Positions 5,230 to 14,496 of a DNA stretch of 24,971 nt are shown here, one piece after another. Source of the DNA: a virus; IMG/VR virus record IMGVR_UViG_3300025652_000503, positions 1 through 24,971 of that record, one strand, 5' to 3'. How positions within the stretch are numbered: the stretch's first letter is position 1; the number at the start of each line of letters is the position of its first letter. Under the pieces are notes generated by a model. It saw only the letters and a program-made list of their open reading frames with translations. It was not told the DNA's origin and made no database searches. Position numbers and translations under genes: made by a program.

Positions 5230-7773
5230 ATGCTACAAGTATCAACATTGCTTCGAGAAGTTATTGCTTCAATGTCAGTGACTTTGAAAATTGATTCAGT
5301 TGAAGCTTCTGGCTCAAACTGGAAAGTATATTGTTCCAACACTCAATATTTAAACACGCTCTCTGAGCTTGAAATTGGTAGCGTTCAATATGTTGTTGAA
5401 AGCTTTGTTCAAGATGAATATTTGATTCTTGAAGGAGCAGTCGAACCGACTCCAGGTATTTTCGCTCTACGGAATCCGACTTTCAAGCATGGCAAGTATC
5501 AAGCTGTTCTGACAGAGCTTTCAGATCCGCAAGACTTGGACATCATGCCTTTGATTTGGATGCTTGAAAATCAGCAGCGCACACGGCCTTCAGAGCTTGA
5601 TAGCAAAATCGAAAGCGAAGGTCAAGTCAGACTTTTCTTTGCAAATACAGATGACTGGTCGAGAGACACAGAACAGATGTATGAAGAAATCTTGAATCCG
5701 GTTCTGACTCTTGTCAATTTGTTTCTTGTAGAGCTTGAAGCGAATAAAAGAACTGGTGATTTTGGTGTGATCGAAACTACAAATCATGCGAAGTTGACTA
5801 TCGGAGGCGGAGACTTAGGAAGTACTGAAGCTCAAGGAATCTTTCAGAGAACGCTTTCAGGAATAGAGGTGACTATCAATCTTCCTATCATGGTTGACTT
5901 TGATTGCTCTGATACTGCTTCAACTCGCGTATGTCCTCAAGTATCTATCTTAGACGCTAATGGTAATATAATTACAATGGTTGACGCAGGCTCTTCTTAC
6001 ACTGTTAGCGGTGGAGGCGGTAGTGGCTTTGTTGAGAACTCAGATTCAAGCTATACTAATACAGTGGCAAGTGGTGCTACTTTAGTGCTGCCTGATATTA
6101 CAGTTACAGATTCAGATGGTTCAACTTCTTCTGTGCCTAGTGTCCAAAACGTACTTTGTACGCCTTCAGCAGACGCTACAGTAGAAAATAGTGACAGTAG
6201 TTACACGAACACTGTAGCAAGTGGAGCTACTTTAGTCTTGCCTGATATTACAGTTACAGATTCAGATGGTTCAACTTCTTCTGTACCTAGTGTCCAAAAC
6301 GTACTTTGTACGCCTTCAGCAGACGCTACAGTAGAAAATAGTGACAGTAGTTACACGAATACTGTTGCAAGTGGTGGAACGCTTACGCTTCCTGACATCA
6401 CAGTTACAGACAGCGATGGGAGCACGTTCACTCAGGCTTCTGTTGTGAATGTAGTTTGTAGTTTAGCGGCAGATGGTACGGTGAATGTAAATAGTGTATT
6501 TTTTGACAATGTAACTTCAGGCGGAACCTTAAACATCGAGGTAAGACAATCGAGTGGAAGCACATTAATAGGTTCAAAACAAGGTGCACATTTTAGGATA
6601 CCTGACAGCGTCATTACTTTAGACAATACGGACGGGTCTACATTATCTACCACAAACGTCTTAGCAACTGATGCGTCGACTATTACTGCTCCGGATGCTA
6701 CTGCTGTAATTAAAAACACTTTAAATGCAGTTCTTAGGTCAGAGTTAGTTCCTAGCAATGTGAGCGAGGATATTATCATTGGCGATGCAACCATTAACAT
6801 TAACCAGAGCGATGGAACTTTAATTGCAAGCGCAACTGTAACAGCAGAGGGTTCAGGAGTTTATAATGTCGCTGATTCAACTGTCAATGTGGTTAATACT
6901 CTTGGCACAGTTTTATCAAGTAACTCAGTAAAAGCCACAGTTACTGACACAGTTCTAGCACCTGATGCAAATGTCGAAAACTCAGACAACAGTTACACTA
7001 ACACAGTTGAAAGTGCTGGCACGCTTACGCTTTCTGATATTACGGTGACATATCCAAGTGGGGCAACCGAGGCATTCCCCGCAGCGATAAACATCACAGC
7101 AAGTGCCGATGTAAGCGATGAGATATTTTTAGAAGCGGATTCGGTTGTAGAAAGTGGGGGTGCGGTAAGTGTAATGACTGACCAAGGCGGAAAGAATAAC
7201 AACGCGAACCAACATGTAGGCTCAACACAGCCAAGCCTTGTCGCTTCGGATGCGTCATACAATAATCAACCTGTGGTCGTTTTTGCGGCTGACCAAATGT
7301 ATTTTGATAGACCATTCGCAGCACACCTGAAAGATGGGTTTTCGTTTTTCTTTGTTGGGCGGGTTGATACAGTGGCGAGATTCGATTGGCTTGGCAGTAA
7401 ATACGGGAACACCGTTTGCTCGCTTGGTGGCTTTGAGGACTTAGGATACACGAGGATTCGAACAAAAGAACTAAGCGCATCGACTAACACCACTCAGAAC
7501 ACAGCGACAAATTTAGATACAGACGGTATTTGGACTCTAATAGGTACGGGCGCGTCTACGAACTTATACTTAAATGGAGTTTTGGTAATTAGCGCAAGCC
7601 AACACCAAGAAAATGGTTCTTTCGGTTGGTTGGGGGCGTTGTCAACTCAATTAAGAAGTAGGGGGCGATTTGGTACAATGACTTTTAGAAACGGCTACGA
7701 CCTGACACAGATAAACGCAAGAGGGTCAGCCTTCGGGACAAAGTACGGATTCACTTGGACAACAATAGTATGA
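5230..7773 (+). CDS. Neck/connector-like protein with tandem fibre repeats and lectin-like C-terminus
   Basis: This 847-residue mosaic protein has three parts. Residues 1 to about 262 look like a conserved neck or head-tail joining domain (LWKVYCSN-like strands, then MPLIWMLENQQRTRPSELDS and VEVTINLPIMVDFDC-like motifs) and end in a glycine linker GGGGSG. Residues 268-417 are three tandem 50-residue repeats of the form NSDSSYTNTVxSG..LPDITVTDSDGST. Diverged copies follow, and one clear late copy starts near 582, giving a beta-rich stalk. Residues from about 632 to 847 resemble a LamG/concanavalin-like sandwich (an FLEADSVV opening, D/G/N-rich turns, VVFAADQMYF, SFFFVGRV, LYLNGVLV). The likely role is a virion appendage near the neck or tail that may bind surface glycans. 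Codon use shifts from CTT-rich to TTA-rich part-way through, suggesting the distal part was acquired. It is in-frame and intact. Confidence 0.7.
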   Translation: MLQVSTLLREVIASMSVTLKIDSVEASGSNWKVYCSNTQYLNTLSELEIGSVQYVVESFVQDEYLILEGAVEPTPGIFALRNPTFKHGKYQAVLTELSDPQDLDIMPLIWMLENQQRTRPSELDSKIESEGQVRLFFANTDDWSRDTEQMYEEILNPVLTLVNLFLVELEANKRTGDFGVIETTNHAKLTIGGGDLGSTEAQGIFQRTLSGIEVTINLPIMVDFDCSDTASTRVCPQVSILDANGNIITMVDAGSSYTVSGGGGSGFVENSDSSYTNTVASGATLVLPDITVTDSDGSTSSVPSVQNVLCTPSADATVENSDSSYTNTVASGATLVLPDITVTDSDGSTSSVPSVQNVLCTPSADATVENSDSSYTNTVASGGTLTLPDITVTDSDGSTFTQASVVNVVCSLAADGTVNVNSVFFDNVTSGGTLNIEVRQSSGSTLIGSKQGAHFRIPDSVITLDNTDGSTLSTTNVLATDASTITAPDATAVIKNTLNAVLRSELVPSNVSEDIIIGDATININQSDGTLIASATVTAEGSGVYNVADSTVNVVNTLGTVLSSNSVKATVTDTVLAPDANVENSDNSYTNTVESAGTLTLSDITVTYPSGATEAFPAAINITASADVSDEIFLEADSVVESGGAVSVMTDQGGKNNNANQHVGSTQPSLVASDASYNNQPVVVFAADQMYFDRPFAAHLKDGFSFFFVGRVDTVARFDWLGSKYGNTVCSLGGFEDLGYTRIRTKELSASTNTTQNTATNLDTDGIWTLIGTGASTNLYLNGVLVISASQHQENGSFGWLGALSTQLRSRGRFGTMTFRNGYDLTQINARGSAFGTKYGFTWTTIV
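6031..6480 (+). repeat. Three tandem 150-bp coding repeats (fibre stalk)
   Basis: Units run at 6031-6180, 6181-6330 and 6331-6480, each encoding 50 residues. Units 1 and 2 are nearly identical over their last two thirds and into the start of the next unit, indicating recent duplication or conversion. Unit 3 keeps the protein pattern but differs more in DNA. A further diverged copy begins near 6973. Confidence 0.92.
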
Positions 7774-10265: not shown

Positions 10266-10598
10266 ATGACAACTCAAGAAAAAATAGGACTACTAGAAAT
10301 TCAGAAAGAACAAATCGAATCTCAAATCGAAGTTGCGAAAGCAGAACTTTTTTTAGTTGAGTTATTCGAAACGGCAACTTTCACGTCTTCTGTAATGATC
10401 GCAGGGGGATTCCACGAAGGAGCGCAAAGGGTTTTTTCTTCGTTTTCTTGGTTATTTAGCGAAGGTGCATTTGAAGAAAAAGTTCGTCTTGGTGCAAAGC
10501 ATTTTAAAGCAATGGACGATTCAGCCGCGTGGCCCTCGTGGAAGTCGCAAGCAATCAAAGCGGCTAAAATCTTAGACGCTAAAGCGAAAAAAGCATGA
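10266..10598 (+). CDS. 110-residue accessory protein, unknown
   Basis: This is the first gene after the candidate promoter near 10230. The N-terminal 35 residues form an amphipathic, likely coiled-coil helix (KIGLLEIQKEQIESQIEVAKAEL). A central stretch with FTSSVMIAGGFHEGAQRVFSS is more hydrophobic but too broken for a confident membrane segment. The end is Lys/Ala-rich. The stop overlaps the next start as ATGA. No family is recognised. In position it leads a run of small genes in an accessory island, so a host-takeover or defence-related role is possible but unsupported. Confidence 0.65.
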   Translation: MTTQEKIGLLEIQKEQIESQIEVAKAELFLVELFETATFTSSVMIAGGFHEGAQRVFSSFSWLFSEGAFEEKVRLGAKHFKAMDDSAAWPSWKSQAIKAAKILDAKAKKA

Positions 10599-10777
10599 GC
10601 CCAGAAAAGAATACACGCCCTTGGTTTTGGGAGAGCGATAGTTTCTCAACCCGCCAAAAGCACATTATGCAAGTAGTTCACGAATGGAACGAAGGTTGGC
10701 TAGATGAAAACGACCTTGAAAAGCGATTAGAAAAATTATTCACTGACAAGAGGCATAATCCAAAAAAGAAATCATGA
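10595..10777 (+). CDS. 60-residue accessory protein, unknown
   Basis: The gene overlaps both neighbours by ATGA (upstream at 10595, downstream at 10774), so three small genes are coupled in one operon. The product is charged, with a W/F-rich N-terminal half (PWFWESDSF) and a helical second half (NDLEKRLEKLF) ending in a basic tail. No family is recognised. Its last 59 bases, from 10719, lie inside a direct repeat whose second copy at 12670 carries only the 3' end of this gene. Confidence 0.6.
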   Translation: MSPEKNTRPWFWESDSFSTRQKHIMQVVHEWNEGWLDENDLEKRLEKLFTDKRHNPKKKS

Positions 10778-11034
10778 TCGGACACAAACTATTGAATTGG
10801 CTGCTGAGAGGAAAACTTCAATCTGGAGATTCTTCTTCAGCCTTTGACCCGAATTACCCACTTCGAGAAATGGTTTGGTTGCTTGAAGATAATCGAGTGA
10901 CTCAGATCGCTGGCAAAGACAAGGATTTTCTGATTAAGTGCGCTCACGATGAAGGCTTGAGAGGATTTCTACATGAGCGGCTCGAATATCGCCATGTGAT
11001 AAAGAGCTGGAAAGAAGGCGAGCTTTGGAGAGAG
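10719..11034 (+). repeat. Long direct repeat, copy 1 (about 316 bp)
   Basis: This pairs with 12670-12985 at a constant offset of 1951 bases. The first 55 bases before the repeated ATG are identical; across the whole unit I count about 19 differences (about 94% identity), most of them in the last third. It covers the 3' end of the 60-residue gene and nearly all of the 92-residue gene. Confidence 0.95.
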
Positions 11035-11052
11035 CGAAAGATTAAAGGATGA
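10774..11052 (+). CDS. 92-residue small protein, duplicated (copy 1), unknown
   Basis: The protein opens MIGHKLLNWLLRGKLQ and continues with a DPNYPLREMVWLLEDNR segment, IAGKDKDFLIKCAHDEGL and a basic RHVIKSWKEGELWRERK end. It is helical in pattern, without a membrane segment or known motif. A second copy of the gene, 90 residues long, lies at 12725; the proteins agree closely up to about residue 62 and diverge at the C-terminus. Codon use is like the core phage genes (CTT, CGA), unlike the TTA-rich methyltransferase and PLP genes between the two copies. The start overlaps the previous stop as ATGA. The function is unknown. Confidence 0.7.
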   Translation: MIGHKLLNWLLRGKLQSGDSSSAFDPNYPLREMVWLLEDNRVTQIAGKDKDFLIKCAHDEGLRGFLHERLEYRHVIKSWKEGELWRERKIKG

Positions 11053-11074
11053 GAAAAATATTCATAAATTAAAA

Positions 11075-11995
11075 ATGAAAAACATGTCAGTTGATTTATT
11101 TGGAAACGAGATTATTACAAATCCATTATTAAGGGATAAATTCATTGAGCCACCATTTAGCGTTTTGGATACTAAAAGCGGAAACTGGCAGAGGCGAAAG
11201 AGGTTATGGAAAGGCATCGGAATGCGCAGCGAGGTGGGGCGTGATGCTAAAGTTCACACTATGCCCACAGGTAAGTACGATAAAAACGACATGGCAAACA
11301 CGTATCATTCCGACGAGGCTCAAAAATTAAATGTTTCAATTTTCGATCCTGCGCTTTGCGAGGTTTTGTATCATTGGTATGTTCCAGAAAACGGAACAAT
11401 ACTTGATCCTTTTGCTGGAGGTTCGGTTCGTGGAATAGTGTCAAATTATTTAGGTTACAAATACACGGGGGTTGACATAAGACAAGAACAAGTCGATAGT
11501 AACAGAGAGCAGGCCTTGGATATTTTAGAAGTAAACAACCAGCCCAACTGGTTTGTAGGCGATAGTAATGAAGTGTTGAACGGATTTAAAAATGAATTTG
11601 ATTTTGTTTTTAGTTGCCCTCCTTACGCTGATTTGGAAGTGTACAGCGATTTGGAAGGCGATATTTCAAACATGGATTACATTAATTTTATGAAAGCTTA
11701 TGAAGAAATAATTGCAAAGAGTTGTAACCTATTAAAAAGTGGTGGGTATGCTTGCTTTGTAGTTGGCGAGGTAAGGGATAAAAAAGGCAACTATATTGGG
11801 TTTGTTCCTGATACTATCAAAGCCTTTGAGAAAGCTGGGCTGAAGTATTACAATGAGGGGATTTTATTGAATGCCATAGCTAGTGCCTCCATGAGAGCTG
11901 ACAAACAGTTTTCTGCAGGCAAAAAACTTGTAAAAGTTCATCAAAACATTTTAATATTTAAAAAGCCTGAATATGATAACTTTAGAAAAACATAA
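11075..11995 (+). CDS. Phage DNA methyltransferase (SCPPY type)
   Basis: This is a 306-residue amino-methyltransferase of the N6-adenine/N4-cytosine class, which transfers a methyl group from S-adenosylmethionine to DNA. Visible blocks are an N-terminal PPFSVLD (26-32) followed by a W/R-rich segment, SAM-binding ILDPFAGGS (109-117) with GVDI (132-135) and VGDS (161-164), catalytic SCPPY (180-184) and the late KVHQNILIF strand (about 297-305). The PPFSVLD opening and compact layout are typical of stand-alone phage modification enzymes rather than restriction-system partners. No restriction endonuclease is nearby. It overlaps the downstream PLP-enzyme gene by 23 bases. AT-rich, TTA-leucine codon use differs from the tail genes on both sides, which points to transfer. 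Target base and sequence cannot be predicted. Confidence 0.88.
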   Translation: MKNMSVDLFGNEIITNPLLRDKFIEPPFSVLDTKSGNWQRRKRLWKGIGMRSEVGRDAKVHTMPTGKYDKNDMANTYHSDEAQKLNVSIFDPALCEVLYHWYVPENGTILDPFAGGSVRGIVSNYLGYKYTGVDIRQEQVDSNREQALDILEVNNQPNWFVGDSNEVLNGFKNEFDFVFSCPPYADLEVYSDLEGDISNMDYINFMKAYEEIIAKSCNLLKSGGYACFVVGEVRDKKGNYIGFVPDTIKAFEKAGLKYYNEGILLNAIASASMRADKQFSAGKKLVKVHQNILIFKKPEYDNFRKT

Positions 11996-12665
11996 CGGAA
12001 TAACAGTTTTAAGAGATGACCTACTAATTGGCGGAACTAAAAGTATTTTAATGCCATCAATAATTGGCGATGCAAAAGAGTATGTTTATGCTTCTCCTGT
12101 TTACGGTGGCTTTCAAATTGCACTATCTGCTTACTGCCAAAAGGTAGGTAAAAAAGCAACTATATTTTGTGCTAAAAGAAAAGTAAAACACGCTAATACT
12201 TTAGAGTGTATAAAATACGGTGCAACTGTAAAAGAGATACCTTACGGATATTTAACAGTAGTTGAGAAACACGCAAAAGACTACTGCAAAGAAACTGGTG
12301 CTGAAAAACTTGTGTTTGGTGCAAATAGTATGGAAAACAAAATATTAATAGGAAACCGAATGCGACAAATAATAAAACAACTTGGAAGAGAGCCAAAAGA
12401 AATATGGTGTGCAATAGGTAGCGGAACACTTGTAGATAGTATTTTAATGGCGACAGAGAGCGCAAAAGTTTACGGTGTACAAGTTGGCGTAGAATATAAA
12501 AAAGAACACGATAGATTAACTGTATTAAAGTATCATAAAGGATTTGACAAAGTAAGTAAACACAAAGCAAATTTTAAAAGTGTGCCTAATTACGATTTAA
12601 AGGCTTTTGAGTATTGCGAAAAACACAAAGTATCTGATGATGTTTTGTTTTGGAACGTATTATAA
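11973..12665 (+). CDS. PLP-dependent fold-type II enzyme, short phage form
   Basis: The protein has 230 residues and resembles the tryptophan-synthase-beta/ACC-deaminase/cysteine-desulfhydrase superfamily. The probable cofactor lysine is K23 in GGTKS, matching the GGNK position of ACC-deaminase-like enzymes. The second strand-turn (YASPVYGGFQIALSAYC, 39-55) takes the place of the usual SNH substrate loop, and AIGSGTLVDS (147-156) is the glycine loop for the cofactor phosphate. It is shorter than free-living relatives (about 300-340 residues) and the usual Ser-Asn-His substrate loop is replaced, so the substrate may be unusual. The start overlaps the methyltransferase gene by 23 bases, a strong sign of a shared job. 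It could act on an amino acid, on a modified base, or be a metabolic helper. Fold call fair; function open. Confidence 0.72.
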   Translation: MITLEKHNGITVLRDDLLIGGTKSILMPSIIGDAKEYVYASPVYGGFQIALSAYCQKVGKKATIFCAKRKVKHANTLECIKYGATVKEIPYGYLTVVEKHAKDYCKETGAEKLVFGANSMENKILIGNRMRQIIKQLGREPKEIWCAIGSGTLVDSILMATESAKVYGVQVGVEYKKEHDRLTVLKYHKGFDKVSKHKANFKSVPNYDLKAFEYCEKHKVSDDVLFWNVL

Positions 12666-12669
12666 GAAA

Positions 12670-12985
12670 AAAAGCGATTAGAAAAATTATTCACTGACAA
12701 GAGGCATAATCCAAAAAAGAAATCATGATCGGACACAAACTATTGAATTGGCTGCTGAGAGGAAAACTTCAAACTGGAGATTCTTCTTCAGCCTTCGACC
12801 CGAATTACCCACTTCGAGAAATGGTTTGGGTGCTTGAAGATAATCGAGTGACTCAGATCGCTGGCAAAGACAAGGACTTTCTGATTAAGTGCGCTCACGA
12901 GGAAGCTTTTAGAGGCTATTTGCATGAGCGGCTAGAATATCGCCATGTGATCAAGAGCTGGAAAAAGGGTAAGATTTGGAGAGAG
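12670..12985 (+). repeat. Long direct repeat, copy 2 (about 316 bp)
   Basis: This is the second copy of 10719-11034. It begins four bases after the PLP-enzyme stop, so the methyltransferase/PLP pair fits neatly between the two copies. Recombination between them would remove about 1.95 kb and leave one intact copy. Confidence 0.95.
12672..12728 (+). pseudogene. 3' remnant of the 60-residue accessory gene
   Basis: These bases are the same as the end of the 60-residue gene (last 18 codons and stop), including the ATGA overlap with the next start, but no start codon or 5' part exists: the frame opens just after the PLP gene stop. It is a passenger of the duplication, not a working gene. Confidence 0.7.
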
Positions 12986-12997
12986 TATAGCTGCTAA
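12725..12997 (+). CDS. 90-residue small protein, duplicated (copy 2), unknown
   Basis: This is a paralogue of the gene at 10774. The first 60 or so residues are almost the same (S to T at residue 17, L to V at 36), then changes cluster (EEAFRGYLHERLEYRHVIKSW) and the final residues are different (YSC in place of KIKG). The frame is open and the changes are mostly amino-acid tolerant, so it is probably functional. It keeps the upstream ATGA context even though the partner gene there is only a remnant. The 255 bases after it hold no gene, but two attC-like hairpins and a tandem repeat. Confidence 0.68.
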   Translation: MIGHKLLNWLLRGKLQTGDSSSAFDPNYPLREMVWVLEDNRVTQIAGKDKDFLIKCAHEEAFRGYLHERLEYRHVIKSWKKGKIWREYSC

Positions 12998-13010
12998 TAG
13001 GCTATGCAAT

Positions 13011-13067
13011 GCTAACGGTTTGTGTAAGATTTCTTTTTAATGAATTTTACACTTTGTTATTGTTAGT
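13011..13067 (+). repeat. attC-like imperfect hairpin 1
   Basis: The outer arms GCTAAC (13011-13016) and GTTAGT (13062-13067) pair, with one G-T at the end. An internal loop follows (5 against 9 bases), then a 10-bp inner stem GTGTAAGATT (13022-13031) with AATTTTACAC (13043-13052) containing one G-T pair. This two-box stem with an unpaired spacer is the geometry of integron attC sites. The 5' arm shares GCTAACGnnTTGTrTAwGATT with hairpin 2. Confidence 0.6.
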
Positions 13068-13081
13068 GTTTGTTATATGTG

Positions 13082-13160
13082 AAAACATATAAAATGATGG
13101 GAAAAGCCAACATTATACGCAAAAACATATAGTAATGATGGCAAAAACAAACATTAATGC
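13082..13160 (+). repeat. Tandem imperfect repeat, two units of about 39 bp
   Basis: Units at 13082-13120 and 13122-13160 both start AAAACATATA and share ATGATGG, an A-run and AACATTA, with a few substitutions and indels. Each contains a double ATG opening a very short frame (13094-13132, 12 codons; 13135-13188, 17 codons). The second unit runs into the GCTAAC of hairpin 2. Confidence 0.7.
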
Positions 13161-13224
13161 TAACGAATTGTATATGATTAAGCGATAGCGACCCTTTTTA
13201 GGGTTAATTATATACGGTGTTAGC
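13159..13224 (+). repeat. attC-like imperfect hairpin 2
   Basis: The outer arms GCTAAC (13159-13164) and GTTAGC (13219-13224) are perfectly complementary. A 5/3 internal loop follows, then a 12-bp inner stem GTATATGATTAA (13170-13181) with TTAATTATATAC (13204-13215) containing one G-T pair, and CCC/GGG around a TTTTTA tip. It ends 28 bases before the second methyltransferase gene. Confidence 0.65.
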
Positions 13225-13985
13225 TGCTGTACGGATTAATTAAAAACGAAATATGAAAAGAAACGAAATATATTTAGGTGATTGCTTGGAGCTAATGCCT
13301 AAACACGTAGAAGATAAAAGTATTGATATGATTTTTTGTGATTTACCTTATGGTACTACGCAAAATAAGTGGGATTCTGTTATTGATTTAGATAAACTTT
13401 GGAGTGAATACAAAAGGATAATTAAAGATAGAGGTGCTATTGTTTTGTTTGCTCAAACACCGTTTGACAAAGTGCTTGGAAGTAGTAATTTGAAGATGTT
13501 AAAGTATGAGTGGATATGGGAGAAGTTTAGAGCAACTGGAAACCTAAACGCTAAGAAAATGCCAATGAAGAAACACGAGAATATTTTAGTATTCTATAAA
13601 AAAGCACCAATATACAATCCTCAAGGATTAACTAAACTAGATGCCCCAAGAACCGAAAAGTTAAGAAACTCAAATAGCTCTAATTATGGATTAAGAAATA
13701 GAGATTGGGTGCAAGAATACACAAATTACCCTAAAAGTATTTTATCTGTAAAAGAGGAGCATAACGTAGGTAGGCTGCACCCTACAATGAAACCATTGGC
13801 TTTAATTGAGTATATGATTAAGACTTACACAAATGAAGGGGATTTGATACTTGACAATACTTGTGGAAGTGGTACAACTGGATTAGGAGCAAAAAATCTT
13901 AAACGAGACTATATTATGATGGAGCAAGACACTGAATATTACGAGATTGCTTGTAAAAGAGTACTAACTTAGTATTGCAGCTAAC
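13219..13985. repeat. 9-bp inverted repeats bracketing the second methyltransferase
   Basis: GTTAGCTGC (13219-13227), the outer right arm of hairpin 2, is the exact reverse complement of GCAGCTAAC (13977-13985), which lies just after the methyltransferase stop. The GCTAAC core at 13980 is thus placed like the 5' arm of a third attC-like site, but no matching inner stem follows it, so that site looks truncated. Confidence 0.6.
13253..13972 (+). CDS. Beta-class DNA methyltransferase (DLPYG type)
   Basis: This 239-residue SAM-dependent amino-methyltransferase is most likely an adenine-N6 enzyme. The order is beta-class: catalytic DLPYG (30-34) comes first, then a short variable region with target-recognition potential (about 95-160), then LHPTMKP (175-181) and SAM-binding ILDNTCGSGTTG (199-210) near the C-terminus. 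An N-terminal YLGDCLELM is also typical. No endonuclease accompanies it, so it is solitary and may shield phage DNA from host restriction. The base composition is the most AT-rich of the window, with TTA/AGA codons. The gene lies between an attC-like hairpin and an inverted GCAGCTAAC copy, and has the look of a self-contained cassette. No TAnnTTTG box precedes its ATG. Confidence 0.9.
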   Translation: MKRNEIYLGDCLELMPKHVEDKSIDMIFCDLPYGTTQNKWDSVIDLDKLWSEYKRIIKDRGAIVLFAQTPFDKVLGSSNLKMLKYEWIWEKFRATGNLNAKKMPMKKHENILVFYKKAPIYNPQGLTKLDAPRTEKLRNSNSSNYGLRNRDWVQEYTNYPKSILSVKEEHNVGRLHPTMKPLALIEYMIKTYTNEGDLILDNTCGSGTTGLGAKNLKRDYIMMEQDTEYYEIACKRVLT

Positions 13986-14049
13986 TCCTTATTAGGAAAG
14001 GAAAAGTGTCGAATAACAGAATCACAAGCGGGATAAAAGCTAAAGTCGT

Positions 14050-14057
14050 TAATTTTG
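14050..14057 (+). promoter_or_regulatory. Bacteroidetes -7 box TAATTTTG restarting the tail operon
   Basis: This is an exact TAnnTTTG match with the four-base spacer CAGC to the ATG at 14062, the same arrangement as at 1141, 4704 and 22408. It lies directly downstream of the accessory island, so the tail genes can be transcribed independently of whatever is inserted there. Confidence 0.65.
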
Positions 14058-14061
14058 CAGC

Positions 14062-14496
14062 ATGAAAAGAGGAATCGAAGTAGCTAGGAACATTCAAAAG
14101 ACAACAGATCGAAGAGTCTTCTTCCTAACCTTTACGAGAGGTGATGCTCAGAATCAAGTGATTGAGCTCAACACAGAAGGCCAGTTGCGTCTTGGTATCA
14201 CTTCTGATGGTTCTGCTCTTCCGGTTTATTCGAGAGCGACAGAGGTCATCTCTGGAGGTGCTAAGATTGCTGGAACTCCTTTCACTCTTTACGACACTGG
14301 AGCTTTTTATGACTCGTTCAAGATGAGCAACGTCGATGGAGACTCAGTCACGATTTCAGCAGATACAGTGAAGCCGAACAAAGACCTTCTTGAGTATGGT
14401 GATTTGATAGGACTTACTGACGGCAATATCACGAAGCTTGTGAGCTACATCATTCCAATCATTCGAGACATCGTGAAGCAAGAAGCACTGAAATGA
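14062..14496 (+). CDS. Putative tail-completion or minor tail protein (gp10-like style)
   Basis: The protein has 144 residues. The segment LYDTGAFYDSFKMSN (about 76-90), a TG-x-x-x-x-S turn followed by a beta strand, resembles the TG...S motif of HK97 gp10-like neck and tail proteins. The C-terminus is helical (LVSYIIPIIRDIVKQEAL). It is the first gene after the accessory island, with its own leaderless-type promoter, and overlaps the next gene by ATGA. Codon use returns to the core style. I rate the gp10-like link as weak; a tail terminator or a tail assembly factor is also possible. Confidence 0.5.
   Translation: MKRGIEVARNIQKTTDRRVFFLTFTRGDAQNQVIELNTEGQLRLGITSDGSALPVYSRATEVISGGAKIAGTPFTLYDTGAFYDSFKMSNVDGDSVTISADTVKPNKDLLEYGDLIGLTDGNITKLVSYIIPIIRDIVKQEALK

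Follow-up and report, generated by a model that had tools for sequence, protein, structure and literature searches.

Two attC-like hairpins that probably begin mobile cassettes in an integron-like array of a flavobacterial phage

Introduction

The prevailing view is that few Bacteroidota have integrons, and that integrons depend on an insert specific to the integrase IntI. Integron cassettes are recognisable by their ends, as the first bases of a cassette pair with its own attC box once the cassette is circular. The IntI-specific insert has been described as essential for integron function (PMC8138268). In Bacteroidetes, IntegronFinder 2.0 reported one complete integron, in Salinibacter ruber, where only In0 elements had been seen earlier (PMC9024848), and the paper presenting taxon-specific attC models does not mention this phylum. 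attC sites and CALINs in phages, including some with methyltransferase cargo, have already been reported, as has IntI1-mediated attC recombination at G|TTRRRY for the Polaribacter phage P12002L, although the site assayed there may lie outside the family described below (Qi et al., 2023; PMC9892861).

Here we analyse two hairpins in a phage genome which, with a probability of roughly 0.87 and judging from sequence comparison, are attC-type folded-strand recombination sites starting two mobile cassettes, in a small integron-like array between a gene denoted gene A and a tail gene. The locus resembles the phage CALINs of Qi et al. (2023) in its folded two-box hairpins, GTT/AAC boxes, complementary cassette ends and methyltransferase cargo, and apparently in belonging to integrase-less arrays in virulent phages; in P12002L itself, seven sites fall within the family at E < 0.002. 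It differs from them in that its R boxes rarely fit RYYYAAC/GTTRRRY, in that the ORF begins, rather than ends, beside its site, and in that the recombinases linked to this family are without the IntI insert.

Results

Two hairpins in a tailed phage genome

The whole stretch of DNA analysed, hereafter the window, comes from a flavobacterial tailed phage, and its virus record is linear and 24,971 bases long. Among its genes are those for a terminase, a portal protein, a head protease, capsid and tail proteins and a tape measure. A first-pass annotation of the sequence had pointed to two imperfect hairpins at 13011-13224, and two-part folds are indeed present at both. The GCTAAC that it described as the outer arm lies at 13011 and 13159. 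One point needs correcting: judged by the rest of the family, in which the 3' box lies three bases after the stem, this box of the first site is GTTATTGTT at 13056-13064 and not GTTAGT at 13062. The parts of the two sites are as follows.

13008-13064, + strand: attC-like site 1 (model R2 E=9.4e-10; model R1 E=1.1e-9; folds)
13008-13016, + strand: 5' box of site 1, AATGCTAAC, followed by a 5-nt spacer
13022-13031 and 13043-13052, + strand: stem of site 1, GTGTAAGATT / AATTTTACAC
13056-13064, + strand: 3' box of site 1, GTTATTGTT, preceded by a 3-nt spacer
13156-13227, + strand: attC-like site 2 (R2 E=2e-9; R1 E=3.8e-10; folds)
13156-13164, + strand: 5' box of site 2, AATGCTAAC, followed by the spacer GAATT
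within 13156-13227, + strand: stem of site 2, opening with GTATATGATTA and closing with TAATTATATAC
13219-13227, + strand: 3' box of site 2, GTTAGCTGC, preceded by the spacer GGT

On single-strand folding, AAC pairs with GTT in an outer helix at both sites, and unpaired spacers set this helix off from the inner stem. With RNA folding 0 of 200 shuffles matched either site (z -4.5 for site 1 and -4.1 for site 2); with DNA folding site 2 was significant (z -4.1) and site 1 weak (z -1.3). The check proposed in the annotation, folding of both strands, gave the two-part hairpin at both sites, and the + strand folded better than the - strand. Searches of Rfam and for tRNAs returned no match, and no intrinsic terminator (a G+C-rich stem followed by a T-run) was found in 12600-14100.

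The 5' arm shared by the two sites, GCTAACGNNTTGTRTAWGATT, is present in 20 viral stretches and in 26 bacterial genome stretches, nearly all from Flavobacteriia, compared with 0 matches across the viral collection for a reversed arm pattern of equal composition; the sharing is far from chance. Three of the copies are in MAGs assigned to Heimdallarchaeota (L123), Chlorobiota (L127) and Alcanivoracaceae (L130), and may be misbinned flavobacterial contigs. One in Poribacteria (L108) looks like a chance match to the arm pattern.

A site family conserved in structure above sequence

Across 61 sites from phages and chromosomes the hairpin has the form xxxAAC, 5 nt, GTRTAWG.., a variable loop, ..TATAC, 3 nt and GTTxxx, with AAC/GTT invariant. 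Compensatory changes occur at 6 of the 11 stem pairs, stem cells changed on both sides number 101 vs 35 in shuffles, and stem pairing is 97.5% vs at most 53% when the arms are slid. The G-T pair noticed at the seventh stem position of both hairpins extends to the whole family, being found in 55/61 sites (set A1), and in 39/45 phage and 91/95 chromosomal sites. A G.T pair on the + strand is a C.A mismatch on the other, which sets a constant difference between the strands. These loci, many of them on contigs that are fragments, were sampled partly by pattern and partly by methyltransferase homology, and the counts do not estimate prevalence.

Model R1 was trained with the window's own sites included, so to avoid circularity a second covariance model, R2, was built solely from 135 Flavobacteriaceae chromosomal sites. 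Its matches in the window are exactly the two hairpins (E 9e-10 and 2e-9). The attC-like geometry proposed for them is thus borne out by a two-box folded hairpin with unpaired spacers, whose structure is conserved above its sequence (covariation, folds and R2 matches). That the core departs from the textbook consensus was also rightly noted: only AAC/GTT is constant in the R boxes, and both boxes fit RYYYAAC/GTTRRRY in 0/86 phage sites and 1/129 chromosomal sites.

Cassettes and flanks in the window

The array and its flanks consist of the following features.

12725-12997, + strand: gene A copy 2, left flank of the array
13016-13163, + strand: cassette a, a unit also present in viral contig L101 with other flanks
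13164-13984, + strand: cassette b, comprising hairpin 2, a leader and a DNA methyltransferase gene
13253-13972, + strand: N6/N4 DNA methyltransferase ORF, 239 aa (PF01555 E=2.9e-30; phrog_67)
13977-13985, + strand: 3' end box of cassette b, GCAGCTAAC, with no family hairpin after it
14062-14496, + strand: tail protein gene (phrog_6195), right flank of the array

Cassette a is made up of hairpin 1 and ~100 bp without an ORF, including two copies of a ~34-bp repeat. Its ends, GTTATTGTTAGTGTTTG and CAAACATTAATGCTAA, are largely complementary, and it would be cut at AA^C at 13015/13016 and 13163/13164. Cassette b, whose ends GTTAGCTGC and GCAGCTAA(C) are complementary, would be cut likewise at 13163/13164 and 13984/13985. 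The homology of cassette b ends exactly at 13985, the 3' AAC, in 8/10 phages, and L012 has 13159-13985 in common with the window, hairpin included. Changes at the two ends compensate each other between phages: the pair is GTTAGCTGC/GCAGCTAAC in the window, GTTACCTGC/GCAGGTAAC in most phages and, likewise covarying, GTTGTGTGC/GCACACAAC in L010. The right edge of the array is placed at the 13977-13985 box because no family hairpin follows it. A similar leader (~GTACGGATTATTAA...AAATATG) lies after the GTT box and before different cassette genes at several phage loci (e.g. L012 5970-6000, L095 9880-9910 and L247 4030-4080), and is perhaps a shared translation or promoter region.

Both cassettes of the window are also present in a close relative, L004. 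An empty site would be expected to join the flanks at 13015|13985. In the relatives L193 and L194 gene A adjoins the tail gene with no cassette between, and the intergenic sequence is unlike the window's. The gene A/tail interval of L194 includes an apparent half site: at ~5950-6000 only the 5' half is seen (GCTAAGGTTGGTATAAGAAGCGTTGCG), which is probably a cassette remnant.

Gene A is duplicated in the window at 94% identity (10719-11034 and 12670-12985), and L004 is without 10270-11088, which includes the first copy. The copies flank a second methyltransferase and a PLP-dependent enzyme: at 11075-12665 a DNA methyltransferase gene is overlapped by a PALP-family (threonine dehydratase-like) gene, and the pair could be members of a DNA modification pathway. 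Elsewhere, a 150-bp unit is repeated at ~90% identity (6049-6260 and 6199-6410) within a long ORF at 5230-7773.

Chromosomal arrays in Flavobacteriaceae

The annotation pointed to similar elements near genes in Bacteroidetes chromosomes, and here these prove to be gene-flanking arrays, with 81 to at least 133 sites in each of four genomes. Within each array stretch examined the sites share one direction. All six variable positions of the cassette ends are complementary in 89/110 chromosomal cassettes, and the mean is 5.7/6 vs 2.2 with the ends shuffled, which is the signature of integron cassettes. Among pairs of chromosomal hairpins at least 90% identical, the flank after GTT alone is common in 50 and that before AAC alone in 5; for near-identical pairs in phages the numbers are 5 and 0. 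As flank sharing falls mostly after GTT, the moving unit appears to start at one AA^C and stop at the following one, with a predicted crossover at AA^C/G^TT. Chromosomal ORFs run against the site direction in 88 cases and along it in 2, and so the order along the gene is ORF, attC and a cut at G^TT, an arrangement known from classical integrons. An ORF-poor cassette of ~390 bp, with its own distinct hairpin, has many copies per array in G001 (L145-L148) and G002 (L149-L150).

These arrays are like the Vibrio superintegron and other sedentary chromosomal integrons in having >100 similar sites in one direction, mostly one ORF per cassette followed by its own attC, and a recombinase and attI-like junction at one end. 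They are unlike it in that the recombinase is co-directional with the cassettes, ~375 aa long, extended at the N-terminus and without the IntI insert.

A recombinase without the IntI insert

In G001, G002, G003, G005 and G014 this ~375-aa tyrosine recombinase is encoded where the array ends. It was found in 132/295 genomes of the class, and sites in 47/295 under stricter filters. Recombinase and sites occur on one contig in 14 survey genomes (G001, G073, G075, G110, G149, G156, G222, G249, G267, G269, G273, G284, G294 and G298), where every listed site is antiparallel to the gene and lies past its 3' end. In G156, G267, G284 and G298, which have both on contig C1, no more than ~3.1 kb separates the gene from the closest of the listed sites.

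Structure comparison gave XerA and IntI (IntI4) as best matches, and the linked recombinases match NF040815, a likeness shared with XerA/XerC/D enzymes. Unlike XerC and XerD, they sit at cassette arrays and in a tree group with IntI to the exclusion of host XerC/XerD (100/99 support). They are not IntI by the TIGR02249 model, scoring ~139-214 bits against a cutoff of 265, and a canonical IntI above that cutoff occurs in only one of 22 site-bearing genomes, G020, a MAG labelled Alcanivoracaceae. Because its recombinase is without the IntI insert and its boxes fall outside RYYYAAC/GTTRRRY, the system is an integron-like variant. At many loci an imperfect palindrome right after the recombinase stop codon is followed by GTT, where sequences diverge. 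In 18 loci picked by eye the palindrome arms average 8.1 nt, compared with 4.0 nt after shuffling. Such a junction looks as would be expected of an attI. In L135-L139, L176, L178, L179, L187 and L192 the recombinase gene is often ~40-200 bp from the contig end, as though assemblies were interrupted by the array or by a first cassette that varies.

Phage arrays and gene polarity

A related recombinase of ~267 aa is encoded on viral contigs in which 81 sites were found. Without exception these share the strand of the recombinase gene, almost all lie upstream of it, and phage genes flank the arrays. Neither this phage-borne enzyme nor the lack of the IntI insert was foreseen in the annotation. 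Upstream of the phage recombinase start the motif TAAC-TAYTATATRTA is conserved on its right and variable on its left (1.3 vs 0.3 bits per position over 40 loci, anchored on the motif), and it looks like a cassette entry point. Cassette ends are perfectly complementary in 36/53 cases in phages with the recombinase and 17/55 in phages without (means of 5.2 and 4.0 positions; shuffles ~2.2-2.5). Control phage contigs, chosen for a methyltransferase only, gave 2 site matches in 583 kb, and a related recombinase is encoded just downstream of one of these, in L049.

In phages 35 ORFs run along the site direction and 1 against it, and 8/32 (in a tighter count) stop at the AAC box. Chromosomes and phages have a common frame, in that the sites of both platforms point to the recombinase end and phages reverse transcription only. 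This explains the switch in polarity, and speaks against the idea that host arrays and phages simply share cassettes.

In a search run without a positive control, neither the window record nor 25 other array-bearing records, among them complete phi13:2 and near-complete P12002L, yielded a recombinase of the phage type. A tyrosine recombinase beside the methyltransferase cassette of phi13:2, gp038, was considered and rejected, its relationship to the array recombinases being very remote. With two family sites (scored with R1 and R2), phage genes around them and no phage-type recombinase found in the record, the window looks like a recombinase-less phage array and is a candidate CALIN.

Discussion

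Alternative explanations

The annotation had suggested that gene cassettes move between host arrays and phage DNA. Host arrays do bear the same site family, which is also found in Cellulophaga and Polaribacter, the genera infected by phi13:2 and P12002L. However, the polarity of ORFs relative to the site is opposite (35:1 in phages, 2:88 in chromosomes), sampled phage and host cassettes gave 0 protein matches at 1e-3, and the only relatives of the cassette b methyltransferase among 295 genomes, sampled from the class to which a host genome belongs, are distant (40-50% identity). Such shuttling is therefore unlikely, and the sample does not support this part of the annotation. The methyltransferase might instead be a transposon-like unit that has short inverted repeats at its ends (GTTAGCTGC/GCAGCTAAC) and relies on a transposase for its movement, the hairpins being incidental. 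The complementary unit ends would suit this, as would the similarity of several phages beginning near GTT and not before the hairpin, but L012 and the L005/L011/L015/L020 group have inherited hairpin and unit together, and the same hairpin family accompanies different cargo, which makes a transposon very improbable.

We regard as more improbable still that these are ordinary intergenic RNA hairpins (terminators or processing sites) spread by homologous recombination. Strong RNA folding, an intergenic position and phage genes that often stop at the AAC box could all be accounted for in this way; it would not lead one to expect that ends are complementary, that boundaries fall exactly at AAC, that long arrays keep to one strand or that a recombinase is linked to them, and there is no T-run or other terminator-like site in 12600-14100. 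The annotation had itself named plain terminators, and a failure to recur as arrays elsewhere, as grounds for dropping its attC-like reading, and arrays do exist elsewhere.

How the cassettes may move

If the hairpins are attC-type sites, a tyrosine recombinase of the XerA/IntI group would bind the + strand hairpin while the DNA is single-stranded, during replication or infection, and would read the stem, the unequal spacers and the G.T pair. It would cut at xxxAA^C (complement G^TT), and the cassette, in the order hairpin, ORF and end at the next AA^C, could then be joined to a second site of this kind or to one that is attI-like. Which enzyme acts, on which strand and by what reaction is predicted here from sequence. 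No recombinase is seen in the window, so the enzyme would have to be provided in trans, by a host integron-like platform or a co-infecting phage that carries one, or come from an unseen part of the phage's own genome.

A possible integron lineage of Bacteroidota phages

The results suggest that phages have a cassette pool in common. We think it fairly likely that Bacteroidota phages carry a distinct integron lineage. Its recombinase would be short and devoid of the IntI insert, it would have an attI of its own, and its arrays would reach a dozen or more cassettes, with genes reversed relative to the site to follow phage transcription. Recombinase-less phages would then hold satellite arrays of the same pool, allowing virus-to-virus exchange of anti-restriction and other accessory genes, and the superintegron-like arrays of the hosts would be a sister platform. 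A literature search of mainly open-access journal papers gave no account of the arrays in Flavobacteriaceae, of the recombinase linked to them or of the phage platform. The reversed gene polarity of phages (35:1 vs 2:88), and the phage recombinase of 267 residues with arrays upstream, are new.

Should these arrays recombine, standard models have overlooked a large system of gene capture that operates in flavobacteria and their phages. It would offer a natural variant in which to test the role of the IntI insert and the choice of strand in folded-site recombination, and would give lytic phages a site-specific route by which to exchange methyltransferases and other small accessory genes.
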